Of a stretch of 42,491 bases of DNA, positions 1-19,238 are shown in pieces; position 1 is the first letter of the stretch; every line of letters begins with the position of its first letter. Source of the stretch: Omnitrophica bacterium GWA2_41_15 (GTDB lineage: Bacteria; Omnitrophota; Gorgyraeia; Gygaellales; Profunditerraquicolaceae); contig CAKKQZ010000013.1 in assembly GCA_919902445.1 (NCBI GenBank), positions 18,803 to 61,293 of the forward strand. The letters are read 5' to 3'. The notes beneath the pieces were generated by a model. It did no database searches, was not told the origin of the DNA, and was given only the letters and a program-made list of their open reading frames with translations. The position numbers were made by a program, and so were the translations under genes.

Positions 1-1
1 C

Positions 2-3356: not shown

Positions 3357-3357
3357 T

Positions 3358-4104
3358 CTAAAGATATACCTTTGATAAAACAACTATTGATAATAAAATA
3401 AGCGCCTCGTTTAATTCGGATAAAGCGCCAAGTGAGTCTCCGGTTAAACCGCCAATTTTACTCTTTACCCAAAAAGAAGCGAAAAAAGTAAAAGCGATTG
3501 TAAAGAAGAGTATCGCCAGGCTCATAATCCTGAAACTAAACATTAAGATAATCAGGGTGATTGCCGTGGAAAAGAAAAAATTCTTGAGGCTCTTTTCCTG
3601 AAAAAATACCACGGCCTTTCCTTCGCTTCGCGCATAAGGAAAAAAAGTTATGGCTAAGCTCATGCTATACCTAGAAAGCAAGGCCATTAAAACAAGGGAA
3701 AAATGCCTTAATTCATGAGGTATTGAAGAAAGGAGCGCCAGCTTAAATAAAATAATGGCTACAATAGCCAGGATTCCAAAAGTGCCCAGATGGACCTCTC
3801 GCATTATGCTTAGCATCTCTTCTTTAGTCTTACCGCTGAATAATGCATCGCAGGAATCTGCTAATCCGTCGATATGCATTGCCCCGGTTATGATAAGGAG
3901 TGTAAATATCAGTATTAAGTTAGTTAAAAGAGGCGGCAATACCAAAGATAAAATCTTATCCAAGGCAATAAGCCCTATGCCCAGCAAGGCTCCTACTACG
4001 GGAAAATAAAGGGAAGATTCGCCTAATTTCCTGGTATCTTGCGAAGATTCATTTTTAATTCGCAGAACCGTAAGAAACTGTATTGCGCTGGTTAATCCGT
4101 TCAT
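3358..4104 (-). CDS. cobS: Adenosylcobinamide-GDP ribazoletransferase (cobalamin synthase)
   Basis: Integral membrane enzyme that joins adenosylcobinamide-GDP to alpha-ribazole (phosphate), closing the nucleotide loop. Seen: N-terminal SAIQFLTVLRI, the family signature HIDGLADSCDALFSGKTKEE followed by MREVHLGTFG, and multiple hydrophobic helices through the C-terminal half; 248 residues, normal length. Its ATG overlaps the TGA of cobT (ATGA at 4101-4104). It sits beside cobT and cobU, the enzymes that supply its two substrates. Confidence 0.96.
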   Translation of the reverse strand: MNGLTSAIQFLTVLRIKNESSQDTRKLGESSLYFPVVGALLGIGLIALDKILSLVLPPLLTNLILIFTLLIITGAMHIDGLADSCDALFSGKTKEEMLSIMREVHLGTFGILAIVAIILFKLALLSSIPHELRHFSLVLMALLSRYSMSLAITFFPYARSEGKAVVFFQEKSLKNFFFSTAITLIILMFSFRIMSLAILFFTIAFTFFASFWVKSKIGGLTGDSLGALSELNEALILLSIVVLSKVYL

Positions 4105-5171
4105 GCTATCTCGTTTTTTAAAGAAACACTCGCTGATTTAAAGGTGGCCATTTGCGTCAATATCTTTATTGATGCTTCAGCCAGGCCAATACCTAAGCAT
4201 GCCCCTGTTCCTTCTCCCAGGCGCATCCTTAAATCCAAAAGCGGATTTAAGCCGAGGTAGTCCAGGATAATTCCGTGGCCTGATTCCTGGGAGCGGTGGC
4301 TGGCTATGCAATAGTTTATTACCTTTGGCTCTATTTTGCAGGCTAAAAGGCATGCTGCTGTGGAGATGAAACCGTCAATTACCACCGGGATTCTTTTTGC
4401 CGAAGCTCCGAGGATTACTCCGGTAAGCCCCCCTATCTCAAAACCACCTACCTTAGATAACACATCAATAGGGTCATTAGCATCAGGTTTATTGATTTCT
4501 AACGCTCTTTTAATTACTTTAATTTTATTGGCAAGTTGCGTGTCGTCTATCCCCGTTCCCCTTCCAGTTAATTCTTCGACAGACTTACCTATAATAGCCG
4601 CAGCAATAGCGCTGGAAGCGGTTGTATTACCTATTCCCATATCTCCTGTGCCGACGATATCGCAGCCCTGCAAAAATTCCTCTTCAATTAATCCTATTCC
4701 CGTCTCGATGGCTTTTATCGCTTCATCATTGCTCATCGCAGGGCTTTTAACAAAATTCTTTGTCCCTAAATTTATTTTCCTGTCTTTAAAATTTTTTATT
4801 GCCGAAGGATCAATTTTTTCTGCTACCCCCATATCCACTACTATCACCTTAGCGCCAATGTGTTTGGCCAGGACATTTATAGCTGCGCCCCCTCGGATAA
4901 AATTATAAACCATCTGTGCGGTTACTTCTTTTGGGAAGGCGCTTATCTTCTCTTCGGTAACCCCGTGGTCCGCAGCCAGAGTAAAAATCACCTTGTTTTT
5001 TAGTTGTGGCTCAACCTTTTCGCTTATTGCGACAATCTGTTTGGCTAACTCTTCCAGGCGGCCAAGGCTTCCCTGGGGCTTAGTAAGAAAATCAAGCCTT
5101 ATTTGAGTTTCGCGTAAAATAGCGCTGTCTAAATCTTCGATGCTTTTAATGGTTTCCTGAAGCCTATTCAT
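4101..5171 (-). CDS. cobT: Nicotinate-nucleotide:dimethylbenzimidazole phosphoribosyltransferase
   Basis: CobT activates the lower-ligand base by making alpha-ribazole phosphate from nicotinate mononucleotide. Seen: TKPQGSLGRLEELA near residue 30, the AADHGVTEEKISAFP block, the GTGDMGIGNTT block, and the C-terminal RLGEGTGA motif with the expected catalytic base Glu320. Length 356 is typical. It overlaps cobU by 8 bases and cobS by 4. No gene for making dimethylbenzimidazole is visible here, so the identity of the lower ligand cannot be told from this window. Confidence 0.97.
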   Translation of the reverse strand: MNRLQETIKSIEDLDSAILRETQIRLDFLTKPQGSLGRLEELAKQIVAISEKVEPQLKNKVIFTLAADHGVTEEKISAFPKEVTAQMVYNFIRGGAAINVLAKHIGAKVIVVDMGVAEKIDPSAIKNFKDRKINLGTKNFVKSPAMSNDEAIKAIETGIGLIEEEFLQGCDIVGTGDMGIGNTTASSAIAAAIIGKSVEELTGRGTGIDDTQLANKIKVIKRALEINKPDANDPIDVLSKVGGFEIGGLTGVILGASAKRIPVVIDGFISTAACLLACKIEPKVINYCIASHRSQESGHGIILDYLGLNPLLDLRMRLGEGTGACLGIGLAEASIKILTQMATFKSASVSLKNEIA

Positions 5172-5697
5172 TATCCGCTCCTTTTAGCTTAAGAGGAAGG
5201 CCGGAAACTATAAGATAAACTTCATCCGAAGCCGCAGCAATAGACTGATTTATTTTTCCTGCTAAATCTCTGAACCTTCTTGCTAACGGATTATCCGGAA
5301 CAATCCCCATCCCAACCTCATTTGAAACAATCAAGGTGTTAAAGTTAGAATTTCTTATGGTCCTTAACACTGAATTAACTTCGCTTTGAATAGAATAATC
5401 GGATCTTCCTTTTAAGAGGAGGTTTGAAATAAAAATAGTCATGCAATCAATAATTATTAAATCTGTTTTTTTAGAAATTCTTTTGACTAAAAAAGATAAC
5501 TTTACCGGCTCTTCAATTGTTTTCCAGCGGGATGGTCTATTTTTGCGGTGCAATTTTATTCTTTTACGCATTTCATTATCAGAGGGTGCGGCAGTTGCGA
5601 TGAATAAGAGCGAGCTTGCTGATTTCTGCGCTAATTTTAAAGCGAATCGACTTTTTCCGCTTCGAGCGCCTCCCAGTATAAGAGTAATTTTACCCAT
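5164..5697 (-). CDS. cobU: Adenosylcobinamide kinase / adenosylcobinamide-phosphate guanylyltransferase
   Basis: Bifunctional enzyme that phosphorylates adenosylcobinamide and transfers GMP to make adenosylcobinamide-GDP, the substrate of CobS. Seen: P-loop GGARSGKS at residues 9-16, the IIDCMTIFISNLL block, and the C-terminal VSNEVGMGIVP, NPLARRFRDLAGKINQ and SGLPLKLK segments typical of CobU. Length 177 is normal. It begins 4 bases after the cobC stop and overlaps cobT by 8 bases. Confidence 0.96.
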   Translation of the reverse strand: MGKITLILGGARSGKSRFALKLAQKSASSLLFIATAAPSDNEMRKRIKLHRKNRPSRWKTIEEPVKLSFLVKRISKKTDLIIIDCMTIFISNLLLKGRSDYSIQSEVNSVLRTIRNSNFNTLIVSNEVGMGIVPDNPLARRFRDLAGKINQSIAAASDEVYLIVSGLPLKLKGADNE

Positions 5698-5701
5698 AAA
5701 T

Positions 5702-6283
5702 TTACTGATTAAATAGTTTTAAATCCGGCCTGCCACTATCAAATTCAATTACGCTAAAGGTAGCGGTCTTCGGTATGTACGCCCAGAAATCATTGCTCTT
5801 CAAAAGGGTGTTTATGAAAATACTTATTGCCCCGCCGTGAGAAACAACGGCTATTGTTTTATTTTTATTGAAGGCAATAACCTTTTTAAACGCCCTCCCT
5901 ATCCTCTTTTTGAAAGTTTTAAAATTTTCTCCTTTAGGAATGGGGAACTTATAAGGATTGTCCAGCCATTTTTTGTATTCATAAGGATATTTTTTTGTAA
6001 TTTGTTTGTAGGTTAACCCTTCAAATATCCCAAAGTCCATCTCCTGAAGGCCTGGGATCCTTTTAATGCCAATTTTGCCGAAGACTATCCTTGCGGTTTG
6101 CGCGGTTCGTTTCATATCGCTTGAGAAAATCTTATTAATAGAAATTTTTTTTAAACGGCTGCGCAGCGCAATGGCTTGTTTAACTCCAGTCCTGCTTAAG
6201 GAAATATCATTGCGCCCGCAGTACTTTTTTTGGCGATTCCAGCTTGTTTCGGCATGCCGAATTAATATTATCCTTATAGACAT
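5702..6283 (-). CDS. cobC: Histidine phosphatase, probable alpha-ribazole phosphatase
   Basis: Member of the phosphoglycerate-mutase-like superfamily. In a cobalamin operon its likely job is to remove the 5'-phosphate of alpha-ribazole phosphate. Seen: catalytic RHAETSWN near residues 9-16, the LQEMDFGIFEG block and the second histidine in VVSHGGAI. I start it at the ATG at 6283 (MSIRIILIRHAET), which gives 193 residues. An upstream in-frame GTG at 6346 lies inside the 5' arm of the riboswitch terminator hairpin, so it is rejected. No clear Shine-Dalgarno precedes the chosen ATG. Substrate is inferred from context; the superfamily is certain. Confidence 0.85.
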   Translation of the reverse strand: MSIRIILIRHAETSWNRQKKYCGRNDISLSRTGVKQAIALRSRLKKISINKIFSSDMKRTAQTARIVFGKIGIKRIPGLQEMDFGIFEGLTYKQITKKYPYEYKKWLDNPYKFPIPKGENFKTFKKRIGRAFKKVIAFNKNKTIAVVSHGGAISIFINTLLKSNDFWAYIPKTATFSVIEFDSGRPDLKLFNQ

Positions 6284-6298
6284 TTTAATTTGCGTAAA

Positions 6299-6340
6299 CA
6301 AAAAACCCCGAACATAGCTTGTTTTTGCTATTCTTCGGGG
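6299..6340 (-). terminator. Intrinsic terminator between cobalamin riboswitch and cobC
   Basis: On the minus strand CCCCGAA pairs with TTCGGGG and, inside it, ATAGC pairs with GCTAT, with an A-rich loop; the hairpin is followed at once by six T residues. It lies downstream of the riboswitch and 16 bases before the cobC ATG, so it is the likely expression platform by which B12 shuts off the whole operon through transcription termination. I did not find an obvious antiterminator pairing by eye. Confidence 0.85.
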
Positions 6341-6385
6341 CTGCACCCAAATATTGCTATGGCCCTATCCGCGAGGTAAGTTTTT

Positions 6386-6538
6386 GTATAGGCAGGTATT
6401 CTGACTTAGGGTTTTGCTTGCTTTTCTGCTCCTTCCCATCCCGATAAATTTCAGGACAGTGGAATAACGCAGTCTTTTATCCCCCTTACAGCGGCGGGAC
6501 CGCGGCTGATTCTCACAGCCTTCCCTTAACCTATACTA
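6386..6538 (-). promoter_or_regulatory. Cobalamin (B12) riboswitch
   Basis: Minus-strand aptamer with the recognisable conserved parts in order: AGGTTAAGGGAAG near its 5' end, then GTGAGAATCAGCCGCGG, TCCCGCCGCTGTAAGG (the B12-box region, with GCCGCTG where GCCACTG is usual), then CCACTGTCC, GGGATGGGAAGG, and the closing GTCAGAATACCTGCC. It sits between a good promoter and the cob genes with a terminator after it. The cob operon is therefore very likely repressed by adenosylcobalamin. Confidence 0.95.
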
Positions 6539-6553
6539 TCAATTGTCAACTTC

Positions 6554-7159: not shown

Positions 7160-7798
7160 GTCTTTGCAGGCGTATTTGCCCAGAAGCGGCACGAATACGC
7201 AGTTACAGATTTCGCTAGATTCTAATTTACCCTTTGTTTTCTCGGCTAAAGTTAATAGCTGGATAGAGTTTTCTCCCAAGGGAAGCATAATCTTGCCGCC
7301 TTCTTTTAATTGTTCGCTCAAAGGCAGAGGTATTCTTGGGGCTGCTGCCGTAATAATAATCCTGTCAAAAGGCGCTTCTTCCGGCCAACCAAGAGTTCCG
7401 TCTGCGCACCTTAGTTTAATATTTTCATAGCCCATGGCTTTAAGCTTCTCTTCGGTTTTTTTTGCCAGGATTTCCAATCTTTCTATACTGTAAACTTCTT
7501 TAGCCAGTTGCGAAAGTATTGCAGTTTGATATCCTGAGCCGGTACCTATCTCCAAAACTTTTTCTTCCCCGGTTAAACCTAAGTATTCTGTCATAAGGGC
7601 AACAATATAAGGCTGGGATATGGTTTGTCCTTCTCCTATCGGCAGCGGATAATCAGCGTAAGCGCTGGCAGCTAATTCTTGAGGCACGAATTTATGCCTC
7701 TCTATTTTGCGGAATGCTTCAAGGACCCGGTAGTTTTTTATGCCGCGGGGTATAAGTTGCTCTTCCACCATCCTCTTTCTTAATACTTCAAAGTCCAT
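7145..7798 (-). CDS. pcm: Protein-L-isoaspartate O-methyltransferase
   Basis: Repairs isoaspartyl damage in proteins using S-adenosylmethionine. Seen: an N-terminal VEEQLIPRGI block, the substrate-side motif PIGEGQTISQPYIVA, the SAM-binding motif VLEIGTGSGYQTAIL at about residues 81-95, then FDRIIITAAAPRIP and LKEGGKIMLPLG. Length 217 is normal. It overlaps the upstream glycosyltransferase by 19 bases. The last residues (KDRDTL) are encoded within the 59-base GGGACACCC repeat, so that repeat now supplies its C-terminus and stop codon. Confidence 0.95.
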   Translation of the reverse strand: MDFEVLRKRMVEEQLIPRGIKNYRVLEAFRKIERHKFVPQELAASAYADYPLPIGEGQTISQPYIVALMTEYLGLTGEEKVLEIGTGSGYQTAILSQLAKEVYSIERLEILAKKTEEKLKAMGYENIKLRCADGTLGWPEEAPFDRIIITAAAPRIPLPLSEQLKEGGKIMLPLGENSIQLLTLAEKTKGKLESSEICNCVFVPLLGKYACKDRDTL

Positions 7799-8451
7799 AA
7801 TTCACTCAGTATAAATTTGATAAATCTTAATGTATCAACTACAGGATTGATGCTGCTTTTTTTTCCCAAATATATTGCCTTGATCGGGACAGATTCAATT
7901 TTAAAGCCTAAACTCGACCCCCTAATCAATATTTCTGACTCAGTCTCATATTTGCTGGTAGAAAGAGAAACTTTTTTTAAAACATCTTTTTTTATTAATC
8001 TGAAACCGCACTGCGAGTCCGGGATCTTCTGTTTTGTCATCAGCGAAATAAGCCAGGACATAATCCTGTTTATGATTTGGCGCTCCAGGGGCATATTTTT
8101 AATCTTTTGCATCCTGTTTCCGATTATTATTCCGCTATCTGAATATTCGGCTAAACGCATAAAGTAAGGGATATCTGCGGGAAGGTGCTGGCCATCACCG
8201 TCCATGGTTATTACAGCTTCACAGCCGCAATCCAAAGCATAATTGAAACCCTTGATTAAAGATGCTCCCTTACCTTGGTTAGGCTCATTTTTTAACACAG
8301 TGGCTCCGCTCTCCTTGGCTATTCCTGCAGTATTATCTATTGAGCCATCATCAATAACTATCACTTCCAGGCCCTGTTTTTTTACCTCGGCCACCAGCCT
8401 GGCAATATCTTTTGATTCATTATAAGTAGGAATAATCACGCAGGTTTTCAT
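7780..8451 (-). CDS. Family 2 glycosyltransferase, dolichol-phosphate-sugar-synthase-like
   Basis: Transfers a sugar from a nucleotide or related donor; dolichyl- or polyprenyl-phosphate mannose/glucose synthases are the nearest type. Seen: IIPTYNES near residue 6, DDGS at about 34-37, the metal-binding DGD at 84-86 (ITMDGDGQH), and DSQCGFRLIKKDVL in the second half. No membrane helix, 223 residues. Its ATG overlaps the TGA of the acyltransferase (ATGA), so it is translated with that gene. It probably works on an envelope glycolipid or polyprenyl-linked sugar; donor and acceptor cannot be read from sequence. Confidence 0.85.
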   Translation of the reverse strand: MKTCVIIPTYNESKDIARLVAEVKKQGLEVIVIDDGSIDNTAGIAKESGATVLKNEPNQGKGASLIKGFNYALDCGCEAVITMDGDGQHLPADIPYFMRLAEYSDSGIIIGNRMQKIKNMPLERQIINRIMSWLISLMTKQKIPDSQCGFRLIKKDVLKKVSLSTSKYETESEILIRGSSLGFKIESVPIKAIYLGKKSSINPVVDTLRFIKFILSELWTLKY

Positions 8452-10502: not shown

Positions 10503-10706
10503 TTATATCTTATTTTCTCGGTAAATCTCTACCAGCGCATTGGCTGTTTGCGGGCGGTATGGCCTGTCAGTAGTCATGGCATAAATATGTCTGCTGCTGA
10601 AATTATCGAAGCGATTAAAGGCATCCGGCAGGATTCTTATTGACGGCCAGTAATTTTTTAGTTCTTTTATAGTTACCGGGTTGACTATAAAGGCAAAAGT
10701 TTTCAT
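10503..10706 (-). CDS. Small 67-residue ORF of unknown function
   Basis: Lies in line with the operon, 30 bases after the lipoyl-domain gene and 8 bases before the glycosyltransferase. The protein begins MKTFAFIVNPVTIKELKNYW and contains IRILPDAFNRF. This start reminds me of the N-terminus of COG5322-type predicted dehydrogenases (FAF-[IV]-hydrophobic-HP...LP), so it could be the remnant of such a gene, but that is recollection only. The rest (RHIYAMTTDRPYRPQ) I do not recognise. No strong Shine-Dalgarno. Coding status is plausible, not proven. Confidence 0.45.
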   Translation of the reverse strand: MKTFAFIVNPVTIKELKNYWPSIRILPDAFNRFDNFSSRHIYAMTTDRPYRPQTANALVEIYRENKI

Positions 10707-10736: not shown

Positions 10737-10976
10737 TTATTGGTTTTCTTCTAAGGCCCCCAGGACTTCACCAGGATGGACTGTTTCTCCTTCATGAAAA
10801 GTAATTTCGGAGAGCATCCCGGTTGCAGGGCTTGGCAGGTTAAAAGTGGCCTTATCAGTGGTGAGTTCCACTAAGTCGTCTTTTTCGTTTACCTTCTCTC
10901 CCTCTTTGAAAAACCAGAAGGAAACTGTTGCTTTTTCAATCCCTTCCCCCAACTCTGGCAAAACAACTTTCACCAT
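10737..10976 (-). CDS. Free-standing lipoyl-domain protein
   Basis: 79 residues that form one complete biotinyl/lipoyl domain of the 2-oxoacid-dehydrogenase E2 type. Seen: LPELGEGIEKATV at the start, the lipoylation lysine Lys42 in ELTTDKATFNLPSP, and the closing HPGEVLGAL. There is no linker, peripheral-subunit-binding or catalytic acyltransferase domain after it; the stop is clean. It overlaps lipB by 41 bases and follows lpdA, so the enzyme that attaches octanoate and the enzyme that reoxidises dihydrolipoyl groups are encoded with it. Its E1/E2 partners are not in the window. It could serve as a separate lipoyl carrier or be the detached domain of an E2 encoded elsewhere. Confidence 0.88.
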   Translation of the reverse strand: MVKVVLPELGEGIEKATVSFWFFKEGEKVNEKDDLVELTTDKATFNLPSPATGMLSEITFHEGETVHPGEVLGALEENQ

Positions 10977-11589
10977 TTTGCAATCTCCTGGTTAAGATTT
11001 TTTTTATATCGCGAACCGAAATCTTTTCTCCGATGCAAGTTTCAAGCGATGTCATCATTATATCCATTCCGCAGGGCCGAATCAAGGAAAAATTACTCAA
11101 ATCATCCTGTTTTATATTCATGGCTACACCATGATAAGTTATCCAGTTTTTAATGGCAATGCCTATCGAAGCAATCTTTTTATCCTTGAACCAAACTCCA
11201 GTTAGCCCCTTAATCCTCTGAGTCGCTACTGAAAACTCTGAAAAAGTTTGCATTGCAATACTCTCAAGTTTCCTTAAAAAGATATGTATATCGCGCTTAA
11301 AATAATTTAAATTTAATATAGGATAAAACATTAGTTGCCCGGGGCCGTGATAAGTGGCGTCCCCTCCCCTTTCAACATTGAAAACTTCAATACCTTTATT
11401 TTTTAGTTCGGATTCAGGAATTAAAATATTCTTGCTGGTTGCCTGCCTTCCTAATGTTATCACCGGATTATGCTGGCATAGAATGAACGCATGCGTTAAC
11501 TCTCCGTTTTTTACATCACTGAAGACCTTTTTCTGAAAATCCCAAGCCTCTTTAAAATCTACCAAACCAAGGTCAAATATATTAACCAT
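10936..11589 (-). CDS. lipB: Octanoyl-[ACP]:protein N-octanoyltransferase
   Basis: Moves octanoyl groups from acyl carrier protein to lipoyl domains, the first step of lipoate synthesis. Seen: HNPVITLGRQA, the signature RGGDATYHGPGQ at 74-85, the catalytic Lys near 138 in KKIASIGI, YHGVAMNI, and the acyl-accepting Cys173 in IRPCGM. Length 217 is normal. The gene runs 41 bases into the lipoyl-domain gene, and its final residues are out of frame with that gene. No lipA is seen nearby. Confidence 0.95.
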   Translation of the reverse strand: MVNIFDLGLVDFKEAWDFQKKVFSDVKNGELTHAFILCQHNPVITLGRQATSKNILIPESELKNKGIEVFNVERGGDATYHGPGQLMFYPILNLNYFKRDIHIFLRKLESIAMQTFSEFSVATQRIKGLTGVWFKDKKIASIGIAIKNWITYHGVAMNIKQDDLSNFSLIRPCGMDIMMTSLETCIGEKISVRDIKKILTRRLQNGESCFARVGGRD

Positions 11590-11593
11590 AAGC

Positions 11594-12883
11594 TTATTTT
11601 AAGGCTTCGTGTATTGATTCGGAAAGAGTCGGATGAGCAAAAATAGTATCTTTGATTTGAGAAATTTTTAGTTGATTGGTTATGGAAACGCCAAAGGCGG
11701 CTATTAATTCGGTTGACTTTGGCCCGATAATAGAAGCGCCGAGGATTTGGCCTGTCCTTGCCTCCGAGATAACTTTTATAAAACCTTCGGCCTCATCCAG
11801 TATGCGCGCCATCCCGCTCCCTAAAAAATCAAATTTGTTTATTTTGATATCTATTCCTTTATTTTTTGCCTTTTCCTCACTGCTTCCTATGCTCGCGATT
11901 TCCGGGTCAGTAAAAATACAATTGGGGATGATAGAATTATCGGCTTTTTTGGGTGAATTCAAATTTGCAATATTTTCTGCGGCGATAACTCCCTGATAAG
12001 CTGCAAAGTGCGCAAGCATAATCTTAGCTGTGCAGTCGCCTGCGGAATAGATGTTGTTAATATTGGTTTTAAGATACTCGTCTACCAGGATTTTGCCTCT
12101 TTCTAATTTTACCCCGATTTCGGCAAGCCCCATCCCTTCGGTGCGTGGCGCCCTGCCAACACAAACTAAGGTTAAAGAATAATTTTTTGTATCAAAGGTT
12201 TGGGCATCGGTATTTGTGTGGACCTTTACCCCTTTCTTTTTAAAAATTATTTCAAGCTTTCTTGCCACTTCGCTATCTTCACCCGGAAGTAGCTGAGGCA
12301 TCTTTTCTACTACTGTTACCTGAGCCCCAAGAATAGAAAATAAACTTGCGAATTCACAACCGATAACTCCTCCGCCTATAATTAAAAGCGAAGCTGGAAT
12401 TTCTTTAAGATTCAATATGTCATCGCTTGAAAGGGTAATTTTTGAATCGAATTTAAATGCTGGTAATTCGATTGGCTTTGAGCCGGTGGCAATAAGAATA
12501 TTTTTTGCCTTTATATTTTTACCGCCTGCTTTTATTTCTTCGTTTGACAAAAATTGCGCAGGGGCAGATAAGAAATCAATTCCCTTGAGGGAGGATTGCA
12601 TTCCCTGTCTTAGTCCTGCTACGATCTTTTCTTTCCTCTCTTGCACTTTTTGTAAATTTATTTTGGGAGTTATGTCTTCAAGCCCGAAAGTTGCTGATTT
12701 TTTTATAAGCGTGAAAACTTTTGCGGATTGGATTAAAGTTTTGGTTGGTATGCATCCAAGATTTAAGCAGGTGCCGCCGACCTGAGATTTTTCAATGAGG
12801 CAGCACTTTTTGCCTAAATCTTTGGCTTTTAAAGCGGCATTAAAACCTGCCCATCCCGCGCCGACTATAACAAGGTCATACAT
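11594..12883 (-). CDS. lpdA: Dihydrolipoamide dehydrogenase (E3)
   Basis: FAD flavoprotein disulfide reductase that reoxidises dihydrolipoyl groups with NAD+. Seen: N-terminal FAD-binding GAGWAGFNAA, redox cysteines Cys39 and Cys44 in GGTCLNLGCIPTK, an NAD-binding GGGVIGCEFAS segment, the SAGDCT motif before the dimer domain, and the C-terminal catalytic His417-Glu422 in HPTLSE. Length 429 is slightly short for the family. It lies 3 bases from mdh and 4 bases from lipB, so the three are surely cotranscribed. Other members of this reductase family are excluded by the HPTLSE end and the lipB/lipoyl neighbours. Confidence 0.93.
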   Translation of the reverse strand: MYDLVIVGAGWAGFNAALKAKDLGKKCCLIEKSQVGGTCLNLGCIPTKTLIQSAKVFTLIKKSATFGLEDITPKINLQKVQERKEKIVAGLRQGMQSSLKGIDFLSAPAQFLSNEEIKAGGKNIKAKNILIATGSKPIELPAFKFDSKITLSSDDILNLKEIPASLLIIGGGVIGCEFASLFSILGAQVTVVEKMPQLLPGEDSEVARKLEIIFKKKGVKVHTNTDAQTFDTKNYSLTLVCVGRAPRTEGMGLAEIGVKLERGKILVDEYLKTNINNIYSAGDCTAKIMLAHFAAYQGVIAAENIANLNSPKKADNSIIPNCIFTDPEIASIGSSEEKAKNKGIDIKINKFDFLGSGMARILDEAEGFIKVISEARTGQILGASIIGPKSTELIAAFGVSITNQLKISQIKDTIFAHPTLSESIHEALK

Positions 12884-12886
12884 AAC

Positions 12887-13807
12887 TTAAACAGGCAATT
12901 GTTTGGAAAGCTTTCGTATGACTAAAGCGGAACCCTTTAACAGTTCCAGCTCTTTTTTATTTAAGTCCAGCTCAATAATTTTTTCTATGCCATCTTTTCC
13001 TAAGCGGCAAGGTACGCCTATACAGATATCCTTTATTCCATATTCACCGTTAAGGTATGCGCAAACGCCGATAACGCGCTTTTCATCTTTAATAATTACC
13101 TTAACCATCGCCGCGATGGCTGCTGAAGGAGCAAAATACGCACTTCCGCTGCCAAGCAGGTTCACTATTTCGGCTCCCCTGCCTATAGTTTTACTTACGA
13201 GCAATTCCAATTTTTTATCATCAACGAATTCATCCAGGGCAACGCCTTTTATTTTAGAAAACCTCGCAAGCGGCAGCATCGCTTCGCCGTGGCTGCCTAT
13301 AACTACCGCTTCTACATCAGTAACAGGGATATTAAGTTCTTTTGCGATAAGGTTTGCGAATCTTGACGCATCCAGGCTGACACCCATGCCAAAAACCTTC
13401 TTAAGGCTAAACCCGGTTATCTTTAAAACAAAGTTTGTCATCAGGTCTAAAGGATTGGTAACAACGATAATAATTGCTTTGGGAGATAATTTCTTAATGT
13501 TGCCGCAGATGCCTTTTAAAATTGCTGAGTTTTTCTGGAGGAGTTCCTCGCGCGTCATTCCGGGCTTGCGCGCAAGGCCGGCAGTAATAACTATAACATT
13601 AGAATCCTTAATTTTACTAATATCATCGCTACCTTCTATTTGATAGTTATATTTTAATACTGCCCGCGCATCTTCTAAATCAAACACTTTGCCCTGGGCA
13701 AGCCCCTTTATTACATCAATCAGGACAACCTCGCCAAGCCCTTCTTGAGCTATGCGTAAAGCGGTTGTGCTGCCTACATTTCCCGCTCCTATTATGCTAA
13801 TCTTCAT
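12887..13807 (-). CDS. mdh: Malate dehydrogenase (LDH-like type)
   Basis: NAD-dependent interconversion of malate and oxaloacetate. Seen: GAGNVG at 7-12 with Asp31 after the second strand (NAD-type), the substrate loop ARKPGMTR at about 79-86 with Arg80 where lactate dehydrogenases have Gln, DASR at 146-149, and the catalytic His173 in GSHGE. Length 306 from the ATG at 13807. A longer in-frame start (TTG at 13831) would be encoded by a GGGACACCC repeat and is rejected; that repeat provides the only AAGGG-like ribosome-binding sequence. Lies 3 bases from lpdA. Confidence 0.93.
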   Translation of the reverse strand: MKISIIGAGNVGSTTALRIAQEGLGEVVLIDVIKGLAQGKVFDLEDARAVLKYNYQIEGSDDISKIKDSNVIVITAGLARKPGMTREELLQKNSAILKGICGNIKKLSPKAIIIVVTNPLDLMTNFVLKITGFSLKKVFGMGVSLDASRFANLIAKELNIPVTDVEAVVIGSHGEAMLPLARFSKIKGVALDEFVDDKKLELLVSKTIGRGAEIVNLLGSGSAYFAPSAAIAAMVKVIIKDEKRVIGVCAYLNGEYGIKDICIGVPCRLGKDGIEKIIELDLNKKELELLKGSALVIRKLSKQLPV

Positions 13808-13811
13808 AACT

Positions 13812-13870
13812 AGGGACACCCTTGAATCCAAAGCAGGGACACCCTTGAAACCAATCGGAAGGGTGTCCCT
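13812..13870. repeat. 59-base tripartite palindromic repeat, copy 2
   Basis: AGGGACACCCTT, 11-base spacer, AGGGACACCCTT, 12-base spacer, AAGGGTGTCCCT. This is the inverse orientation of the copies at 7101 and 14970. It fills the gap between isocitrate dehydrogenase and malate dehydrogenase. Confidence 0.9.
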
Positions 13871-13874
13871 AAGA

Positions 13875-14954
13875 TTATAGTTTGGAGATGATAGCGTTTG
13901 TCATTTCTTTTGTGCCAACAGCGTTCGGGTCATTGGGGTCGGCCTTAAAATCATAGGTTACCGATTTTCCTTCGGCAATGACTTTTTTGACCGCATCCTC
14001 AAGCCTCTCGGCAGATTTATCTTCCTTAATATACCTAAGCATAAGCACGCCGGATAAGACCATTGCTGTAGGATTAACCTTATTCAAGCCCTTATATTTC
14101 TGGGCTGAGCCGTGCACTGCCTCAAATACACCCATATTATCGCCTATGTTTGCCCCCGGAGCAATCCCTAATCCTCCGATAAGCCCTGCGCAAAGGTCAG
14201 AAAGTATATCGCCATAAAGGTTAGGTAGGAGTAAAATATCGTAATTGTTTGGTTTCTGCACTAACTGCATGGACATATTATCTACAAGCATTTCTTCAAA
14301 TATTATTTTTCCCACGTATTTCTTAGCAACTTCCCGCGCAGTCTTAAGAAAAAGTCCGTCGGTAAACTTCATAATGTTTGCTTTAGTAACACAGGTTATT
14401 TTTTTTCGCTTGAATTCTAAAGCATATTCAAAAGCGAACCTTACTATTCTTTCCGTAGCAAACTTAGAAATTGGTTTTATGGATATGCCAGAGCCAGGAC
14501 GGATTTTTTTCTTTGAGGCCTTTTCTATCTGTGAGATTAGCTTTTTAGTTGCGCTTTGCCCTTCTTCAAATTCTATTCCCGAGTATAAATCCTCGCTATT
14601 TTCCCTGACAATCACTAAATCTATATCTTTATAAAAACTTTTTACTCCGGGATATGTCTTCGCTGGCCTGACGCAGGCGTATAAATCCAGCGCATGCCTT
14701 ATCGCAACATTCACGGAGCGGAAACCCTCACCTATAGGAGTTACAATCGGGCCTTTTAAAGCAACCTTATTCCTTTTTATGGACTCAATGACGTTTTCAG
14801 GGAGCAACTCCCCGAATTTTTCTTTAGCGCTAAGGCCGGCAATAACTTCTTCCCATTCAATCTTTACTCCTGTTGCCTCAATACACATCTTGGCCGCATC
14901 AGTTACCTCGGGGCCTATTCCGTCACCAGGTATCAATGTTATTTTATGTTTCAT
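13875..14954 (-). CDS. Isocitrate dehydrogenase, probably NADP-dependent
   Basis: Oxidative decarboxylation of isocitrate to 2-oxoglutarate. Seen: PGDGIGPEV at the start; substrate residues Ser80, Asn82, Arg86 and Arg96 in RSVNVAIRHALDLYACVRP; RENSEDLYSG, which is isocitrate-type rather than the isopropylmalate-type RELTGG; the metal-binding region NLYGDILSDLCAGLIGG; and a cofactor loop HGSAQKYKGLNKVNP whose Lys-Tyr and Val match the NADP-binding residues of the E. coli enzyme, with a later VTYDF. Length 359. An AGAGGG precedes the ATG. Flanked on both sides by 59-base GGGACACCC repeats and located beside a LeuCD-type isomerase, which suggests the two act in sequence. Confidence 0.88.
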   Translation of the reverse strand: MKHKITLIPGDGIGPEVTDAAKMCIEATGVKIEWEEVIAGLSAKEKFGELLPENVIESIKRNKVALKGPIVTPIGEGFRSVNVAIRHALDLYACVRPAKTYPGVKSFYKDIDLVIVRENSEDLYSGIEFEEGQSATKKLISQIEKASKKKIRPGSGISIKPISKFATERIVRFAFEYALEFKRKKITCVTKANIMKFTDGLFLKTAREVAKKYVGKIIFEEMLVDNMSMQLVQKPNNYDILLLPNLYGDILSDLCAGLIGGLGIAPGANIGDNMGVFEAVHGSAQKYKGLNKVNPTAMVLSGVLMLRYIKEDKSAERLEDAVKKVIAEGKSVTYDFKADPNDPNAVGTKEMTNAIISKL

Positions 14955-14969
14955 CAGATTTATCCCTCT

Positions 14970-15028
14970 GGGGACACCCTTTGCTTTAACAGGAAGAGCG
15001 GCTCCCGATTGGCAGAAAGGGTGTCCCT
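14970..15028. repeat. 59-base tripartite palindromic repeat, copy 3
   Basis: GGGGACACCCTT, 12-base spacer, AAGAGCGGCTCC, 11-base spacer, AAGGGTGTCCCT. Outer arms and spacing match the other two copies, but the middle unit is changed to a different small palindrome (GAGC-G-GCTC). The stop codon of the LeuD-family gene (15027-15029) lies in its edge. Confidence 0.85.
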
Positions 15029-15527
15029 AAACTTTAAGTTCTCCGTGCTTCTTGTAATAATTGACTATCCCGCCTTCTTTTAAAAATTCCTGCATGAACT
15101 TAGGCAGTGGTTTAATCTTAAGCTTGATATTTTTACTAAGATTCCTGACGATTCCGTTATCAAGGTCAATTTCAAGAGAGTCGGATTCATCAATTTTGTC
15201 AGAGTCGGTTTCGACTAAGGGTAGGCCTATATTGAAAGCGTTGCGGTAAAATATGCGGGCAAAACTTTTAGCCATTACAGCTACAATCCCGGCTTCTTTG
15301 ATTACAAGCGGTGCCTGCTCGCGCGAAGAGCCCATGCCGAAATTCTTTCCTGCAACAATTATTGATTTCCCATGTATTATCTTTGTAGGAAAACCGGGGT
15401 CAATATCCTCCATAATATGCTTTGCAAGCTTATTTATATCCGTAATGGAGAATTTGTACCTCCCGGAGATAATAAAATCAGTATTAATATTATCCCCTAA
15501 TTTTATGCTTTTACCGTCTATTTTCAT
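15027..15527 (-). CDS. Aconitase/isopropylmalate isomerase family, small (LeuD-type) subunit
   Basis: Swivelling domain that completes the active site of a LeuC/LeuD-type hydro-lyase. Seen: NINTDFIISGRY at 14-24, HIMEDIDPGF, GKNFGMGSSREQAP and KSFARIFYRNAFNIGLP. Length 166, typical of the short archaeal-type small subunit. The substrate loop after the conserved Tyr reads YKFS (24-27). As I recall, archaeal homoaconitases carry YLRT and isopropylmalate isomerases YLV-type loops, so this fits neither. Neighbouring isocitrate dehydrogenase and absence of leuA/leuB favour an aconitase role; isopropylmalate isomerase remains possible. Its large subunit is split from it by pilT. Confidence 0.85.
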   Translation of the reverse strand: MKIDGKSIKLGDNINTDFIISGRYKFSITDINKLAKHIMEDIDPGFPTKIIHGKSIIVAGKNFGMGSSREQAPLVIKEAGIVAVMAKSFARIFYRNAFNIGLPLVETDSDKIDESDSLEIDLDNGIVRNLSKNIKLKIKPLPKFMQEFLKEGGIVNYYKKHGELKV

Positions 15528-15578: not shown

Positions 15579-16625
15579 TCATAATTGTTTAAACTCTTCA
15601 GGGTTTTTAACCTTAGACAAAGCTACATCTAATGAGATAGACCCGCGTTTTACCAGTTCTTTTAATGATTTATCCATAGTTTTCATTCCGTATTGAGAAC
15701 CTGTCTGCATTAGTGTAGGGATCTGCTCTATTTCCTGTTCACGGATGAGGTTTCTTACGCCAGCAGTGCCGATCATAATTTCAGTAGCAAGCACACGGCC
15801 CTTGCCAGATGAATGAGGAAGTAGCAATTGAGAAACCACGCCTTGTAAACAATCCGCAAGCTGTAATTTCACCTGTTGCTGTTGGTGTGGAGGGAATACG
15901 TCTATGATCCTTTCAACTGTCTGAGGGGCATCGGGAGTATGCAGTGTGGCCAAAACTAAATGGCCTGTTTCAGCTGCAGTAAGCGCTGTAGATATAGTCT
16001 CCAAATCGCGCATTTCTCCAACCACTATAACATTAGAATCCTGCCGCAAGGCATGCCTGAGGGCTTCGGAGAATGAGAGCGTATCAGCATAAATTTCTCT
16101 TTGCTTAATAATACTTTTTTTATTAGAAAAAATAAACTCTATAGGGTCTTCAATAGAAACAACCATGCACTCCCTTTCATTATTGATCAGGTTTATCATT
16201 GCGGCTAAAGTCGTGGTTTTTCCCATACCAGTTGGCCCGGTAACTAGTACAAGGCCATTTGATTTGCGCGCAAGGTCGGTTACTATTGAAGGAAGCCCTA
16301 GGCTATCTATGCCCGGAATCTCAAGCGGCACGCGCCTGAAGGCGGCTTCTACGGAACCTCTTTGCTGATGGATATTCACGCGGAACCTATCTATAGCAGG
16401 TAGCGCAAGTGAGAAATCAAGCTCTAACTCCCTTTCAAATGTCTCTTTTTGCGGATCTGTCAGGACGCTATATATAATCCTTTTCAGGTCTTGTTTTGAT
16501 AAGGTAGAAAACTCCGTGCGTAATAATTTTCCGTCAACGCGTAAAATAGGAGGTTCATTGTCGGTAACATGTAAATCAGAAGCGCCTTTCTCAATACACA
16601 ACAAAAGTAATTCCTTTATCTCCAT
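15579..16625 (-). CDS. pilT: Type IV pilus retraction ATPase PilT
   Basis: Hexameric cytoplasmic ATPase that depolymerises type IV pili. Seen: N-terminal KGASDLHV, Walker A GPTGMGKTTT at 130-139, Asp box SIEDPIEF, Walker B VIVVGEMRD, His box GHLVLATLHT, and a RNLIREQEIEQIPTLMQTG segment typical of PilT retraction ATPases. Length 348 is normal. A strong AAGGAGGG precedes the ATG. It is oddly placed between the large and small subunit genes of the LeuCD-type enzyme, with palindromic repeats on its upstream side; no other pilus gene is near. Confidence 0.95.
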   Translation of the reverse strand: MEIKELLLLCIEKGASDLHVTDNEPPILRVDGKLLRTEFSTLSKQDLKRIIYSVLTDPQKETFERELELDFSLALPAIDRFRVNIHQQRGSVEAAFRRVPLEIPGIDSLGLPSIVTDLARKSNGLVLVTGPTGMGKTTTLAAMINLINNERECMVVSIEDPIEFIFSNKKSIIKQREIYADTLSFSEALRHALRQDSNVIVVGEMRDLETISTALTAAETGHLVLATLHTPDAPQTVERIIDVFPPHQQQQVKLQLADCLQGVVSQLLLPHSSGKGRVLATEIMIGTAGVRNLIREQEIEQIPTLMQTGSQYGMKTMDKSLKELVKRGSISLDVALSKVKNPEEFKQL

Positions 16626-16777: not shown

Positions 16778-18028
16778 TTATAAAAATTCCCTGGGGTCGG
16801 CAATAAACCCTCGTATTGCCGAAGCAGCCACTGTTGCCGGTGAAGCAAGGTAAATAAAGGCATTGGGATTACCCATCCTGCCTTTAAAATTCCTGTTGGC
16901 AGTAGATATTACAACTTCTCCATCTGCAGGCACACCGTTATGCGTACCTACGCACGGCCCGCAACCCGGAGCGACTATTACAGCGCCAGCCTTAATAAAG
17001 GTATCTACGATTCCCAGCTTTAAAGCCTCTAAGTATATGCCCCTTGAGGCAGGTGCGATAATGAACCGTAGGCCCGAAGCTACTCTTTTAGATTTTAATA
17101 TTTTTGCCGCTATTTTAAAATCAGCTATCCTTGCGTTTGTGCAAGTGCCTAAGAAGGCCTCATTTATTTTAATTTTTTTTAGTTGGTCTACCGAACTTAC
17201 ATTATCCACGCTATGCGGGATAGATACCTGCGGTGAAAGGTGCGAGATATCAAATTTTAGCGTGTTTTCGTAATTAGCACCCTTATCCGGCGTTACAGGT
17301 TTAATCCTTCTTTTGACGCGGTGGGCTTTAAGCCATTTGATTGTTTTCTCATCCTGCGGCATAAAGGCGCATTTTGCCCCCATTTCAACTACCATGTTGC
17401 ATATGGTAAACCTGCCATCCATATCCAATTTGTTAATCGCTGTGCCGGAAAATTCCACCGCCTTATAAGTTGCGCCATCGGCTTTTATCTGGCCGATAAT
17501 GTGCAGGATGATATCTTTTGCAAATACCCCTTTCGGAACCTTTCCGCTTACAACTATTTTTATTGTTTCAGGGACATTAAACCAGTTTTTACCTGTTGCC
17601 AGAGCGATAGCCAGGTCAGTAGAGCCTACGCCGGTGGCAAAAGCCCCCAAGGCTCCGTAAGTGCAGGTATGTGAATCCGCACCCAAAACTAAATCACCGG
17701 GTAATATTTCTCCTGATTCAGGGATCACTTGATGGCACACGCCGCAGCCGATATCAAAAAGCTTAAGTTTAAATTCTCCTGCAAAATCGCGCATCTTTTT
17801 ATGCACTCGCGATACCCCTTCGTTAGGTGAAGGCGCGCTATGGTCAATAACCATACAAAACTTTGTGCCTAAGGCCGTAGGCTTGAGTTCTTTAATCCTA
17901 TCAATAATAATAGAAGATGTGCCATCCTGCCCAAAGGTAAAATCAACTTTGCAGATTGCAAAGTCTCCCGCAGATAAATTTCTTCCGGCATGAACACTTA
18001 ATATTTTTTCAGCAATAGTCTTTCCCAT
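16778..18028 (-). CDS. Aconitase/isopropylmalate isomerase family, large (LeuC-type) subunit
   Basis: Iron-sulfur hydro-lyase large subunit of the short archaeal/Thermotoga-like type (416 residues). Seen: GADSHTCTYGALGAFATGVG near 117-135 and the three [4Fe-4S] ligands Cys296 (LGTCTNAR), Cys356 and Cys359 (APGCGPCVG), then NRNFKGRMGNP and YLASPATVAASA. The ATG follows the aminotransferase TAA with no gap (TAAATG). With the LeuD-type subunit and isocitrate dehydrogenase further down, it may convert citrate to isocitrate; 3-isopropylmalate or homocitrate are the other known substrates of this family. Annotated by family only, since substrate is unresolved. Confidence 0.88.
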   Translation of the reverse strand: MGKTIAEKILSVHAGRNLSAGDFAICKVDFTFGQDGTSSIIIDRIKELKPTALGTKFCMVIDHSAPSPNEGVSRVHKKMRDFAGEFKLKLFDIGCGVCHQVIPESGEILPGDLVLGADSHTCTYGALGAFATGVGSTDLAIALATGKNWFNVPETIKIVVSGKVPKGVFAKDIILHIIGQIKADGATYKAVEFSGTAINKLDMDGRFTICNMVVEMGAKCAFMPQDEKTIKWLKAHRVKRRIKPVTPDKGANYENTLKFDISHLSPQVSIPHSVDNVSSVDQLKKIKINEAFLGTCTNARIADFKIAAKILKSKRVASGLRFIIAPASRGIYLEALKLGIVDTFIKAGAVIVAPGCGPCVGTHNGVPADGEVVISTANRNFKGRMGNPNAFIYLASPATVAASAIRGFIADPREFL

Positions 18029-19204
18029 TTAAAATTTAGCCAACCATTTCTCTAATCGCTCCATCCCGCTTTCAAGTTGTTCTAAGTTGTTCGCGAAGCT
18101 TATGCGTATATATTTATTTGCTCCGAATCCAGACCCCGGGACAGTACTTACTGAGGCTTCTTCAAGAAGCCTGTCGGCGAAGGTTAAGGAATCCAGCATT
18201 GTTTTAGATATATCGCAAAATATATAAAACGCGCCCCTGGGAGTTACGAAACTAATTTTGTTCATTTTTTCAAGCCGTGAAATACAATAATCCCGTCTTT
18301 TTTCAAATTCTTCACATATCTTAGCAAAGAAATCATTGGGTGAGCTTAATGCCGCAACAGCTGCCTTCTGGCTTATTGAAACAGGGTTTGATGTAGAATG
18401 GTCCTGTAATTTTGATACTGCGTCAGATATTTCTTTAGATGCACCAAGATAGCCGATACGCCATCCTGTCATTGAGTAACTTTTGGATAAGCCGTTAACC
18501 GTAACGGTTAATCCGTAAATATCTTTATTCAGGCTGGCTATGGAAACATGGCTTTGGCCGTCATATATTAGTTTTTCATAAATCTCATCGCTGATAACAA
18601 AAATCTTCTCTTTAACGCAAATTTTAGCAATTTGCCCTAATTCATCTTTATTATATACGCATCCCGTAGGGTTTGATGGGCTGTTTAATAAAAGGGCCTT
18701 TGTTTTTGGCGTGATTTGCTTTTCAAGGTCTTTTGATGTTATCTTAAAGTTATTCTGCGGCAAGGCGCAAATGAAACGCGGAGTCCCGTCGCAAATATGC
18801 GTCATTTCAGGATAGCTCACCCAATAAGGAGCAGGTATTAATACCTCATCTCCTTTGTTAACTAAGGCCATCAACGCATTGAATATGCTATGTTTTGCTC
18901 CGCATGAGACTACGATTTGCTCAGGAAGATATTCCAGCGAATTGTCTCTTTTAAACTTTTCGCAGACCGCATTTTTAAGTTCGGGGGTCCCTGCGGTTGG
19001 GGTATATTTAGTAAAGCCGCTTTTAATAGCATCTATGGCGGCGGCTTTAATAAAATCAGGGGTATCAAAATCAGGTTCGCCGGCAGCAAAATTTATAATA
19101 TCCCTGCCTTCTGCTTTTAATTTCTTTGCCTTTGCGTTGATAGCGAGAGTAGAGGATGGATTAACTTTTTTTAGCCGTTCTGCAAGCCTTGTGTCTATTC
19201 GCAT
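18029..19204 (-). CDS. Class I aminotransferase, aspartate/prephenate aminotransferase type
   Basis: PLP-dependent aminotransferase. Seen: NFAAGEPDFDTP near 38-49, KYTPTAGTPELK, NSPSNPTG with the cofactor Asn near 178, SDEIYEKLIYDG, and the PLP lysine Lys241 in NGLSKSYSMTGWRIGY. The YTPTAG/NGLSK/TGWRIGY set is that of the bacterial aspartate aminotransferase 1-gamma group. I choose the ATG at 19204 (MRIDTRLAER; 391 residues); there is no Shine-Dalgarno, and the predicted transcription start coincides with this ATG. First gene of the operon after the ribosomal terminator. Aspartate or glutamate supply links it to the malate/isocitrate enzymes downstream. Confidence 0.88.
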   Translation of the reverse strand: MRIDTRLAERLKKVNPSSTLAINAKAKKLKAEGRDIINFAAGEPDFDTPDFIKAAAIDAIKSGFTKYTPTAGTPELKNAVCEKFKRDNSLEYLPEQIVVSCGAKHSIFNALMALVNKGDEVLIPAPYWVSYPEMTHICDGTPRFICALPQNNFKITSKDLEKQITPKTKALLLNSPSNPTGCVYNKDELGQIAKICVKEKIFVISDEIYEKLIYDGQSHVSIASLNKDIYGLTVTVNGLSKSYSMTGWRIGYLGASKEISDAVSKLQDHSTSNPVSISQKAAVAALSSPNDFFAKICEEFEKRRDYCISRLEKMNKISFVTPRGAFYIFCDISKTMLDSLTFADRLLEEASVSTVPGSGFGANKYIRISFANNLEQLESGMERLEKWLAKF

Positions 19205-19210
19205 TGGTAT

Positions 19211-19238
19211 ATTATACAACAAAATAATTAATAATCAA
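19211..19238 (-). promoter_or_regulatory. Predicted promoter for a leaderless aminotransferase transcript
   Basis: Minus strand carries TTGATT (19233-19238), a 16-base spacer and a perfect TATAAT (19211-19216), followed by ATACCA and then the ATG at 19204. The expected start site, about seven bases after the -10, is the A of that ATG. The -35 overlaps the T-tract of the upstream ribosomal terminator. Confidence 0.75.

Follow-up and report, generated by a model that had tools for sequence, protein, structure and literature searches.

What does a bacterium use lipoate for when neither an E2 acyltransferase of a 2-oxoacid dehydrogenase complex nor a glycine cleavage system is found in its genome? 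The question is raised by a 79-residue lipoyl-domain protein encoded in a 42,491-nucleotide stretch of the genome of Omnitrophica bacterium GWA2_41_15 (contig CAKKQZ010000013.1; this whole stretch is referred to as the window). Its gene (positions 10737..10976, minus strand) follows lpd, encoding dihydrolipoyl dehydrogenase (11594..12883, minus strand, 429 residues), and lipB, encoding octanoyl-[ACP]:protein transferase (10936..11589, minus strand, 217 residues). An earlier note on this DNA had taken the protein for either a diffusible lipoyl carrier or one part of a split E2. The first half of this proposal stood, with a protein that is free-standing, widely conserved in the phylum and retained beside E2 in four genomes, and the second half did not. 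On balance, we lean towards a dedicated diffusible lipoyl carrier (hereafter the carrier), charged by LipB and LipA and recycled by Lpd, that would work as a dithiol shuttle between NAD(H) and a separate client enzyme.

The carrier gene starts with ATG and ends with TAA, in agreement with the clean stop reported in the earlier note. The Biotin_lipoyl match (PF00364, 63.5 bits) spans residues 3–73 of 79, and the lipoyl lysine is K42 in the motif ELTTDKATF. The gene overlaps lipB by 41 bases, and lipB is separated from lpd by 4 bases. The lipB product matches LplA-B_cat (153.9 bits) and TIGR00214 (146.9 bits; cut-off 83.55), and the lpd product matches TIGR01350 (466.2 bits; cut-off 408.8), Pyr_redox_2 (218.8 bits) and Pyr_redox_dim (116.9 bits) and contains CLNLGC, which we take to be the redox-active motif. 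As had been noted from the sequence, no E1 (2-oxoacid decarboxylase) or E2 gene adjoins the three genes among the open reading frames (ORFs) listed for the window. In NCBIfam the carrier best matches the lipoyl region of SucB (68.7 bits, well under the whole-protein cut-off), and its profile matches Protein Data Bank (PDB) chains of E2 type. The AlphaFold2 model, built from 21 sequences, has a mean pLDDT of 94.4. In the Foldseek search, E2 lipoyl domains ranked first and biotinyl domains lower; over the first 31 rows, which include biotinyl domains too, the E2 lipoyl domains gave TMq values of 0.69–0.96. The top matches were 9a4v_B (an ODO2 model, taken as the E2 of 2-oxoglutarate dehydrogenase (OGDH); TMq 0.96), a Thermoplasma E2 (2l5t) and the Azotobacter OGDH E2 (1ghj).

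Conservation was examined in three samples. The first comprises the best 80 carrier loci in a named genome collection (the named loci), the second 58 genomes of relatives including the genome of the window itself (G000; 1.29 Mb, 97 contigs, 94.6% complete), and the third 384 genomes of the phylum. Some named loci and genomes of the other samples are the same assemblies (e.g. L099 is G012 and L156 is G129). By their titles, 77 named loci belong to Omnitrophota or Omnitrophica, two are designated only as “bacterium” (L083 and L146), and one is Candidatus Velamenicoccus archaeovorus. The stop-to-stop frame around the domain is 76–146 residues long (median 87) in all 80, and the ORF counted from the nearest start is 75–91 residues long in the 79 loci scored, L143 being left out for lack of a start codon at the match or ahead of it. 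The lipoyl lysine is kept in 80/80 loci, within an exact TDKA-like motif in 78 of them and TDKT in the other two. A chance ORF is ruled out because the free-standing frame recurs in relatives with this lysine conserved. A truncated or frameshifted E2 was also rejected, as the frame closes with TAA, the ORF on its 3′ side has no Pfam match and the same form recurs in the 80 loci. The median dN/dS of the carrier is 0.18 (149 pairs with dS < 1.5), and the protein is under purifying selection.

A short stand-alone lipoyl frame was present in 49 of the 58 relatives-set genomes and missing from nine. This call was made for frames of up to 121 residues and takes in one contig-edge fragment (G023); the divergent carrier L040 (in G057) may belong to another family. 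With a completeness threshold of 90% or more, 25 relatives-set genomes (G000 included) remain, and 24 of them have the carrier. In the phylum sample the carrier model matched 321/384 genomes, though in distant families part of these matches will be weak or come from the lipoyl domains of E2 proteins. A carrier with 58% identity is encoded on the complete Ca. Velamenicoccus archaeovorus chromosome (G129). A non-functional vestige of a lost OGDH would fit the missing E2 and the SucB-like sequence, but its probability is close to negligible: the low dN/dS and the invariant K42 in effect refute it, and the presence in nearly all of the more complete genomes also speaks against it.

The neighbourhood is conserved as well. 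In 77 of the 80 named loci, lpd is encoded upstream of the carrier on the same strand, and two of the three exceptions start just before the carrier at a contig edge; L079 does not pass as lpd-upstream, yet lpd was visible there when the neighbourhood was read. The lipB gene is directly upstream of the carrier in 61 named loci and without a match in 17. The order mdh-lpd-(lipB)-lipoyl is found in 18 of the first 20 relatives' loci; in one of these 18 (L038), three other genes separate lipB from the carrier.

The relationship of the carrier to E2 was examined with a maximum-likelihood tree (77 columns) of 29 stand-alone domains, including the joined one of L187 described below, and 14 E2 lipoyl domains from the same phylum. 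One branch, with a support of 100/97, parts the stand-alone domains from the E2 lipoyl domains, and the stand-alone proteins of genomes that also bear an E2 (L199, L204, L205, and L206) group with the stand-alone side. The inner branches are weak because of the small number of columns and the very long row L040. Residues A16, W21, and F45 are found in 21/21 stand-alone proteins and N46 in 20/21, and none of the four in any of the 14 E2 lipoyl domains of the phylum. These 21 proteins are the window's own and 20 picked by domain-search matches from the 49 carrier-bearing relatives; the residue signature was taken from them as F45 and N46 had been partly selected for by the search patterns behind the 80 loci. 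W21 by itself is not unique, since it appears in aligned E2 domains from outside the phylum. F45 and N46 come close after the lysine turn, and a different partner surface of the carrier is therefore plausible. Judged by the tree and these residues, the carrier is a family of its own and not a domain shed by an E2.

The usual lipoate users were searched for in G000 and in the phylum. The E2 catalytic domain (PF00198) had no match in G000 or in any other of the 58 relatives-set genomes, although the same search gave matches in 10 of 14 control genomes. In the phylum sample PF00198 was found in 62/384 genomes, none of them from the family or order of G000. G129 is not among these 62 (the sample is presumed to be the same as that used for the carrier, and the non-matching genomes are not all listed). 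Of the 12 E2 loci read elsewhere in the phylum, 11 encode an E2 with a lipoyl domain of its own (L216 was not resolved), and lpd-like genes adjoin several of the E2 genes. Where checked, the upstream partner of the E2 is an AceE-like E1 (PDH_E1_M, PF17831, in L215 and Transketolase_C_1 in L209). The carrier coexists with an E2 in four genomes read (G174, G257, G312, and G395). Two proteins of G000 contain Transket_pyr; one is DXS, and the other is the C-terminal half of a transketolase that is split.

These results bear on the possibility that the carrier supplies the lipoyl domain to a 2-oxoacid dehydrogenase complex of OGDH or pyruvate dehydrogenase (PDH) type that is split or has escaped detection, with the E1 and the acyltransferase encoded elsewhere. 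Such a complex would agree with the SucB lipoyl domain as the top NCBIfam match and with the aconitase, isocitrate dehydrogenase (IDH), malate dehydrogenase (MDH), and Lpd genes around the carrier. The E1 test was made with PF02779, which need not catch AceE-like proteins, and the negative result for G000 spans the Transket_pyr class. We nevertheless consider this explanation distinctly improbable in view of the E2 negative with its positive control, the identity of the two Transket_pyr proteins, the lipoyl domains that the E2 proteins of the phylum have of their own, and the coexistence of carrier and E2. A split E2, as proposed in the earlier note, was rejected: no lipoyl-less E2 catalytic domain that the carrier could complete was found in G000, no E2 domain is present in the 58 genomes, and the stand-alone proteins form a separate clade. 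The note had regarded a complete E2 for every 2-oxoacid complex of the genome as evidence to the contrary, and no E2 was found at all.

Glycine cleavage genes, for which a search had also been suggested, gave no match in G000 for GcvH, GcvP, or GcvT. In the 58 genomes the three were above the cut-off in 10, 11, and 10 genomes, respectively, and GcvT was found only in the 10 genomes having GcvH. A glycine cleavage client was therefore rejected for G000. A related idea is that the carrier replaces GcvH in a reduced glycine or C1 system, and the loss of the lipB-lipoyl pair in G004, where the glycine cleavage system is present, would fit it. This is very improbable, however, as 43 of the 49 carrier-bearing genomes are without GcvH and GcvT, and both proteins (the carrier and GcvH) are kept in G003, G012, G024, G035, G042, and G057. 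The AhpD family (PF02627) is absent from G000 and present in only 8 of the 58 genomes, and an AhpD client was likewise rejected for G000. Biotin_lipoyl has three matches in G000, namely the carrier, a protein beside biotin carboxylase (taken as AccB), and an HlyD/CusB-type protein. Because E2 and GcvH are absent and the other two matches are of AccB-like and HlyD/CusB type, the carrier is the only predicted lipoate acceptor found in this genome.

The enzymes to charge such an acceptor are encoded. LipA, which the earlier note had recommended looking for, is present in G000 (contig C12, positions 7202–8053; 323.6 bits against a cut-off of 310.25), together with LipB and Lpd. The predicted lipoylation path is thus complete, with lipB in the gene string and lipA elsewhere in the genome. 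The neighbours of lipA in G000 are genes for a deformylase, aspartate decarboxylase (panD), a trxB-like flavoprotein, and phosphoenolpyruvate (PEP) carboxykinase. Members of other families carry lipA within the lpd-lipB-lipoyl string itself (L023, L190, L193, and L195). One relative, G030, has lpd and the carrier and no LipA match; another sulfur-insertion enzyme, lipoate scavenging or an assembly gap may account for this.

In L187 (2226–3323, plus strand), lipA and the carrier gene share one open frame of 366 residues. AlphaFold2 folds both parts of the joined protein with a mean pLDDT of 90.9. The carrier start in this frame retains a Shine-Dalgarno-like AAAGGAGG and an ATG, and the join was not counted as a proven fusion for this reason; LipA and the carrier are likely translated separately. 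This arrangement, and the strings with lipB and sometimes lipA, would also suit a lipoate assembly or relay protein that, like Bacillus subtilis GcvH, passes on octanoyl or lipoyl groups or supplies free lipoate. That role seems rather improbable to us: no other lipoate acceptor was found in G000, the most constant neighbour is Lpd (77/80) while lipB is unmatched in 17/80 loci, and the L187 frame with its retained AAAGGAGG and ATG may be only a read-through.

The lipB gene itself may be replaceable. In G003, G012, and G024, lipB is missing between lpd and the carrier, and a glycine cleavage cluster contains a lipoate-ligase-family gene after the gcvPB-like genes (L232, L227, and L228). The ligase may take over the work of LipB in these genomes, with the carrier retained. 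In G035 (L231 and L022), by comparison, the cluster as read has lipA and no lipoate-ligase-family gene, and lipB stays beside the carrier. The lipB gene is also missing between lpd and the carrier in L026.

From this gene set the following mechanism can be proposed for the dedicated diffusible carrier. LipB would octanoylate Lys42, LipA would convert the octanoyl group to lipoyl, and Lpd would interconvert the lipoyl disulfide and the dithiol with NAD(H). In its holo form the carrier would then alternate between dithiol and disulfide to link NAD(H) with a separate client, in much the way that thioredoxin works with thioredoxin reductase. We infer lipoylation of the carrier in vivo, a partnership with Lpd and transport of electrons rather than acyl groups. 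A client enzyme depending on the carrier probably exists. The best single guess, made by analogy, would be a thiol-dependent enzyme akin to the lipoyl-dependent peroxidases (Ohr/OsmC), for which Lpd would run in the direction from NADH to lipoyl. AhpD is another known client of the lipoyl/Lpd system. For Corynebacterium glutamicum, Lpd with SucB is reported to have reduced Ohr more efficiently than the other systems tested with cumene hydroperoxide (PMC4486171). OsmC is reduced by the H and L proteins of glycine decarboxylase in the Trichomonas hydrogenosome, which uses pyruvate:ferredoxin oxidoreductase (PFOR), according to the accessible portion of a review (PMC7946386).

Several observations weigh against this picture. 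The commonest other neighbours in the 80 loci yield no candidate client; they are an MGDG-synthase-like protein, a 388-residue HD-domain protein, an LpxL-like protein, a glycosyltransferase, and a small protein that is HTH-like by eye. Gene fusion gives no client either, the sole joined frame being the LipA-lipoyl one of L187. The flavoprotein gene that adjoins lipA in G000 is thioredoxin-reductase-like (Pyr_redox_2; the name trxB was given by eye), which suggests that a dithiol system probably already exists in this bacterium. A replacement of the thioredoxin system by the carrier, considered as a separate candidate, is weakened by the same gene. A trxA-like gene was read beside the lipA cluster in 13 of 20 loci (PF00085 was checked in one of them, L063), and the contig of G000 ends before that point. 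Six of the 49 carrier-bearing relatives, including the 98% complete G030, gave no LipA match (a contig-edge piece in G052 was scored as present). The carrier model was unmatched in 63 of the 384 phylum genomes, some of which are 95–97% complete. No Transket_pyr-class E1 (E1-beta, SucA) was found in G000 by PF02779, but AceE-type E1 (PF17831) was not searched for there. In G004 (94% complete), lpd is the last gene of the string and is followed by groES and groEL; neither lipB nor the carrier is left there, no match to the carrier model turned up anywhere in this genome, and Lpd is kept along with the glycine cleavage H, P, and T proteins. The function of the carrier can therefore be lost or taken over. 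GcvH is found in 4 of 9 relatives that lack the carrier and in 6 of 49 that have it; the Fisher p of 0.039 is not corrected, and kinship and contig breaks confound it. Only G004 is solid among these four, because G005, G007, and G047 are 78–84% complete and the contig of G007 ends inside lpd. Finally, the adjacency to IDH and the SucB lipoyl part as best match (68.7 bits) would fit a 2-oxoacid route as well.

Such a route could take the form of a new lipoate-dependent 2-oxoacid oxidation, in which a thiamine diphosphate (ThDP) enzyme of the 2-oxoacid:ferredoxin oxidoreductase class would hand electrons, or the acyl group, to the carrier, with Lpd as the link to NAD+, and so fill the 2-oxoglutarate step beside IDH. 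The gene string from aconitase through IDH, MDH, and Lpd to the lipoyl protein argues for it, as does the lack of any E2 and hence of a complete OGDH, and G000 encodes a KOR/VOR-type alpha-beta-gamma 2-oxoacid oxidoreductase set with ferredoxin. This set, however, adjoins dxs on another contig, and no fusion or neighbour connects it with the carrier. Moreover, 2-oxoacid:ferredoxin oxidoreductases use ferredoxin. An incomplete “horseshoe” tricarboxylic acid (TCA) cycle has been published for acetogenic Omnitrophota, and the available part of that study describes it, with PFOR and Pta-Ack acetogenesis, for most Gorgyraia and Velamenicoccia genomes (Seymour et al., PMC10066038). We regard this oxidation as unlikely. 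A broader formulation is that the free E2-type carrier with its A16, W21, F45, and N46 links NAD(H), by way of Lpd, to a client in a lipoate-dependent enzyme system of an undescribed kind; the client could be either a 2-oxoacid oxidoreductase or some thiol enzyme of central carbon metabolism. This formulation is tentative, a possibility that deserves attention without being the expected outcome; if true, it would add a further class of lipoyl use to those in 2-oxoacid and acetoin dehydrogenases, glycine cleavage, and sHdr.

The dedicated diffusible carrier can be compared with several known systems. It shares the fold and the TDKA lysine motif with the E2 lipoyl domains of SucB and PDH E2, and differs from E2 in having no peripheral-subunit or acyltransferase domain, in forming a separate clade, and in invariant residues other than those of the phylum's E2 domains. 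Proteins of this kind are already known, because single-lipoyl-domain proteins outside the classical complexes exist: LbpA of the sHdr sulfur-oxidising system is described, in the text available to us, as such a protein co-encoded with its own lipoylation enzymes (PMC6067878). As far as that source goes, LbpA resembles the carrier in serving neither a 2-oxoacid dehydrogenase nor glycine cleavage and in its co-encoded lipoylation enzymes. LbpA is GcvH-like, whereas the carrier is E2-like by NCBIfam and PDB profiles (GCV_H, PF01597, had no match in G000), and LipB/LipA and Lpd are present here in contrast to the sHdr case. No hdr-like genes were noticed in the gene strings read, where no search aimed at hdr was made. 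GcvH is similarly a small free lipoyl protein recycled by Lpd, but it belongs to a different family, and its partners GcvP and GcvT are absent from G000.

In the mycobacterial peroxidase chain Lpd-DlaT-AhpD-AhpC, an E2-type lipoyl domain works with Lpd as it might here, whereas AhpD is absent from G000. The Lpd/SucB-Ohr and Trichomonas H/L-OsmC systems also use a lipoyl protein with Lpd as the dithiol donor, in the latter with an incomplete glycine decarboxylase complex alongside PFOR, as the accessible sections of the two articles present them (PMC4486171, PMC7946386). The lipoyl protein of these systems is an E2 or GcvH, unlike the carrier. No paper on the carrier was found in the open-access literature searched (on Omnitrophota lipoyl proteins and stand-alone lipoyl domains). 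What appears to be new, within that literature, is an E2-type stand-alone carrier as the sole predicted lipoate acceptor found in a genome and its retention across much of a phylum.

Few uses of lipoate are known, and its synthesis is expensive for the cell. That selection maintains the carrier, alongside LipA, LipB, and Lpd, in small genomes in which the classical lipoate users searched for (E2, the glycine cleavage proteins H, P, and T, and AhpD) were not found suggests that a lipoate-dependent reaction is missing from the list for this phylum or has been reassigned. Accordingly, PDH, OGDH, or glycine cleavage should not be inferred from the presence of lipA, lipB, or lpd in a genome. The question lends itself directly to experiment, since the carrier is small and an enrichment culture of Ca. 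Velamenicoccus archaeovorus exists, with a deposited proteome data set (PXD025008, given in PMC12583861).

The gene string in the window extends past the interval covered by the earlier note, and lpd is part of an aconitase/IDH/MDH string at whose end the lipoyl gene lies. All of its genes are on the minus strand. It begins at 19222 with a class I/II aminotransferase gene (aspC-like, 18029..19222; PF00155, 266 bits), which holds the same position in relatives. This is followed by the large subunit of an aconitase/isopropylmalate isomerase (IPMI)-family enzyme (16778..18028; TIGR02086 above the cut-off), a PilT-like ATPase of the T2SSE family (15579..16625; PF00437, 142.8 bits), the small subunit of the aconitase/IPMI family (15027..15527; TIGR02087 above the cut-off), an isocitrate dehydrogenase-like protein (13875..14954; Iso_dh, with an isocitrate dehydrogenase model as the top NCBIfam match, under the equivalog cut-off), and malate dehydrogenase (12887..13831; Ldh_1_N and Ldh_1_C, PRK06223 above the cut-off), which is 3 bases from lpd. 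The PilT-like ATPase gene thus sits between the two aconitase-family subunit genes, and a relative of it is present in 56 of the 80 named loci. Any assignment of an exact substrate to the aconitase/IDH branch is tentative, because its aconitase has two subunits and belongs to the IPMI/homoaconitase type, and because the IDH scores under every NCBIfam cut-off listed.

On the 3′ side of the lipoyl gene, the next ORF (10503–10706, minus strand, 67 residues) has no Pfam match. It resembles parts of a protein of 302–340 residues that is encoded near the same position in relatives (L030, L034, and L246), and the L030 version of that protein has a Shikimate_DH-like NAD-binding Pfam match. The 67-residue ORF looks like a shrunken remnant by this resemblance. 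Farther along the window, a cobalamin riboswitch (6374–6549, minus strand; Rfam RF00174, 96.7 bits) lies upstream of a string on the same strand at approximately 1–6300, which by eye is cobalamin-biosynthesis-like.

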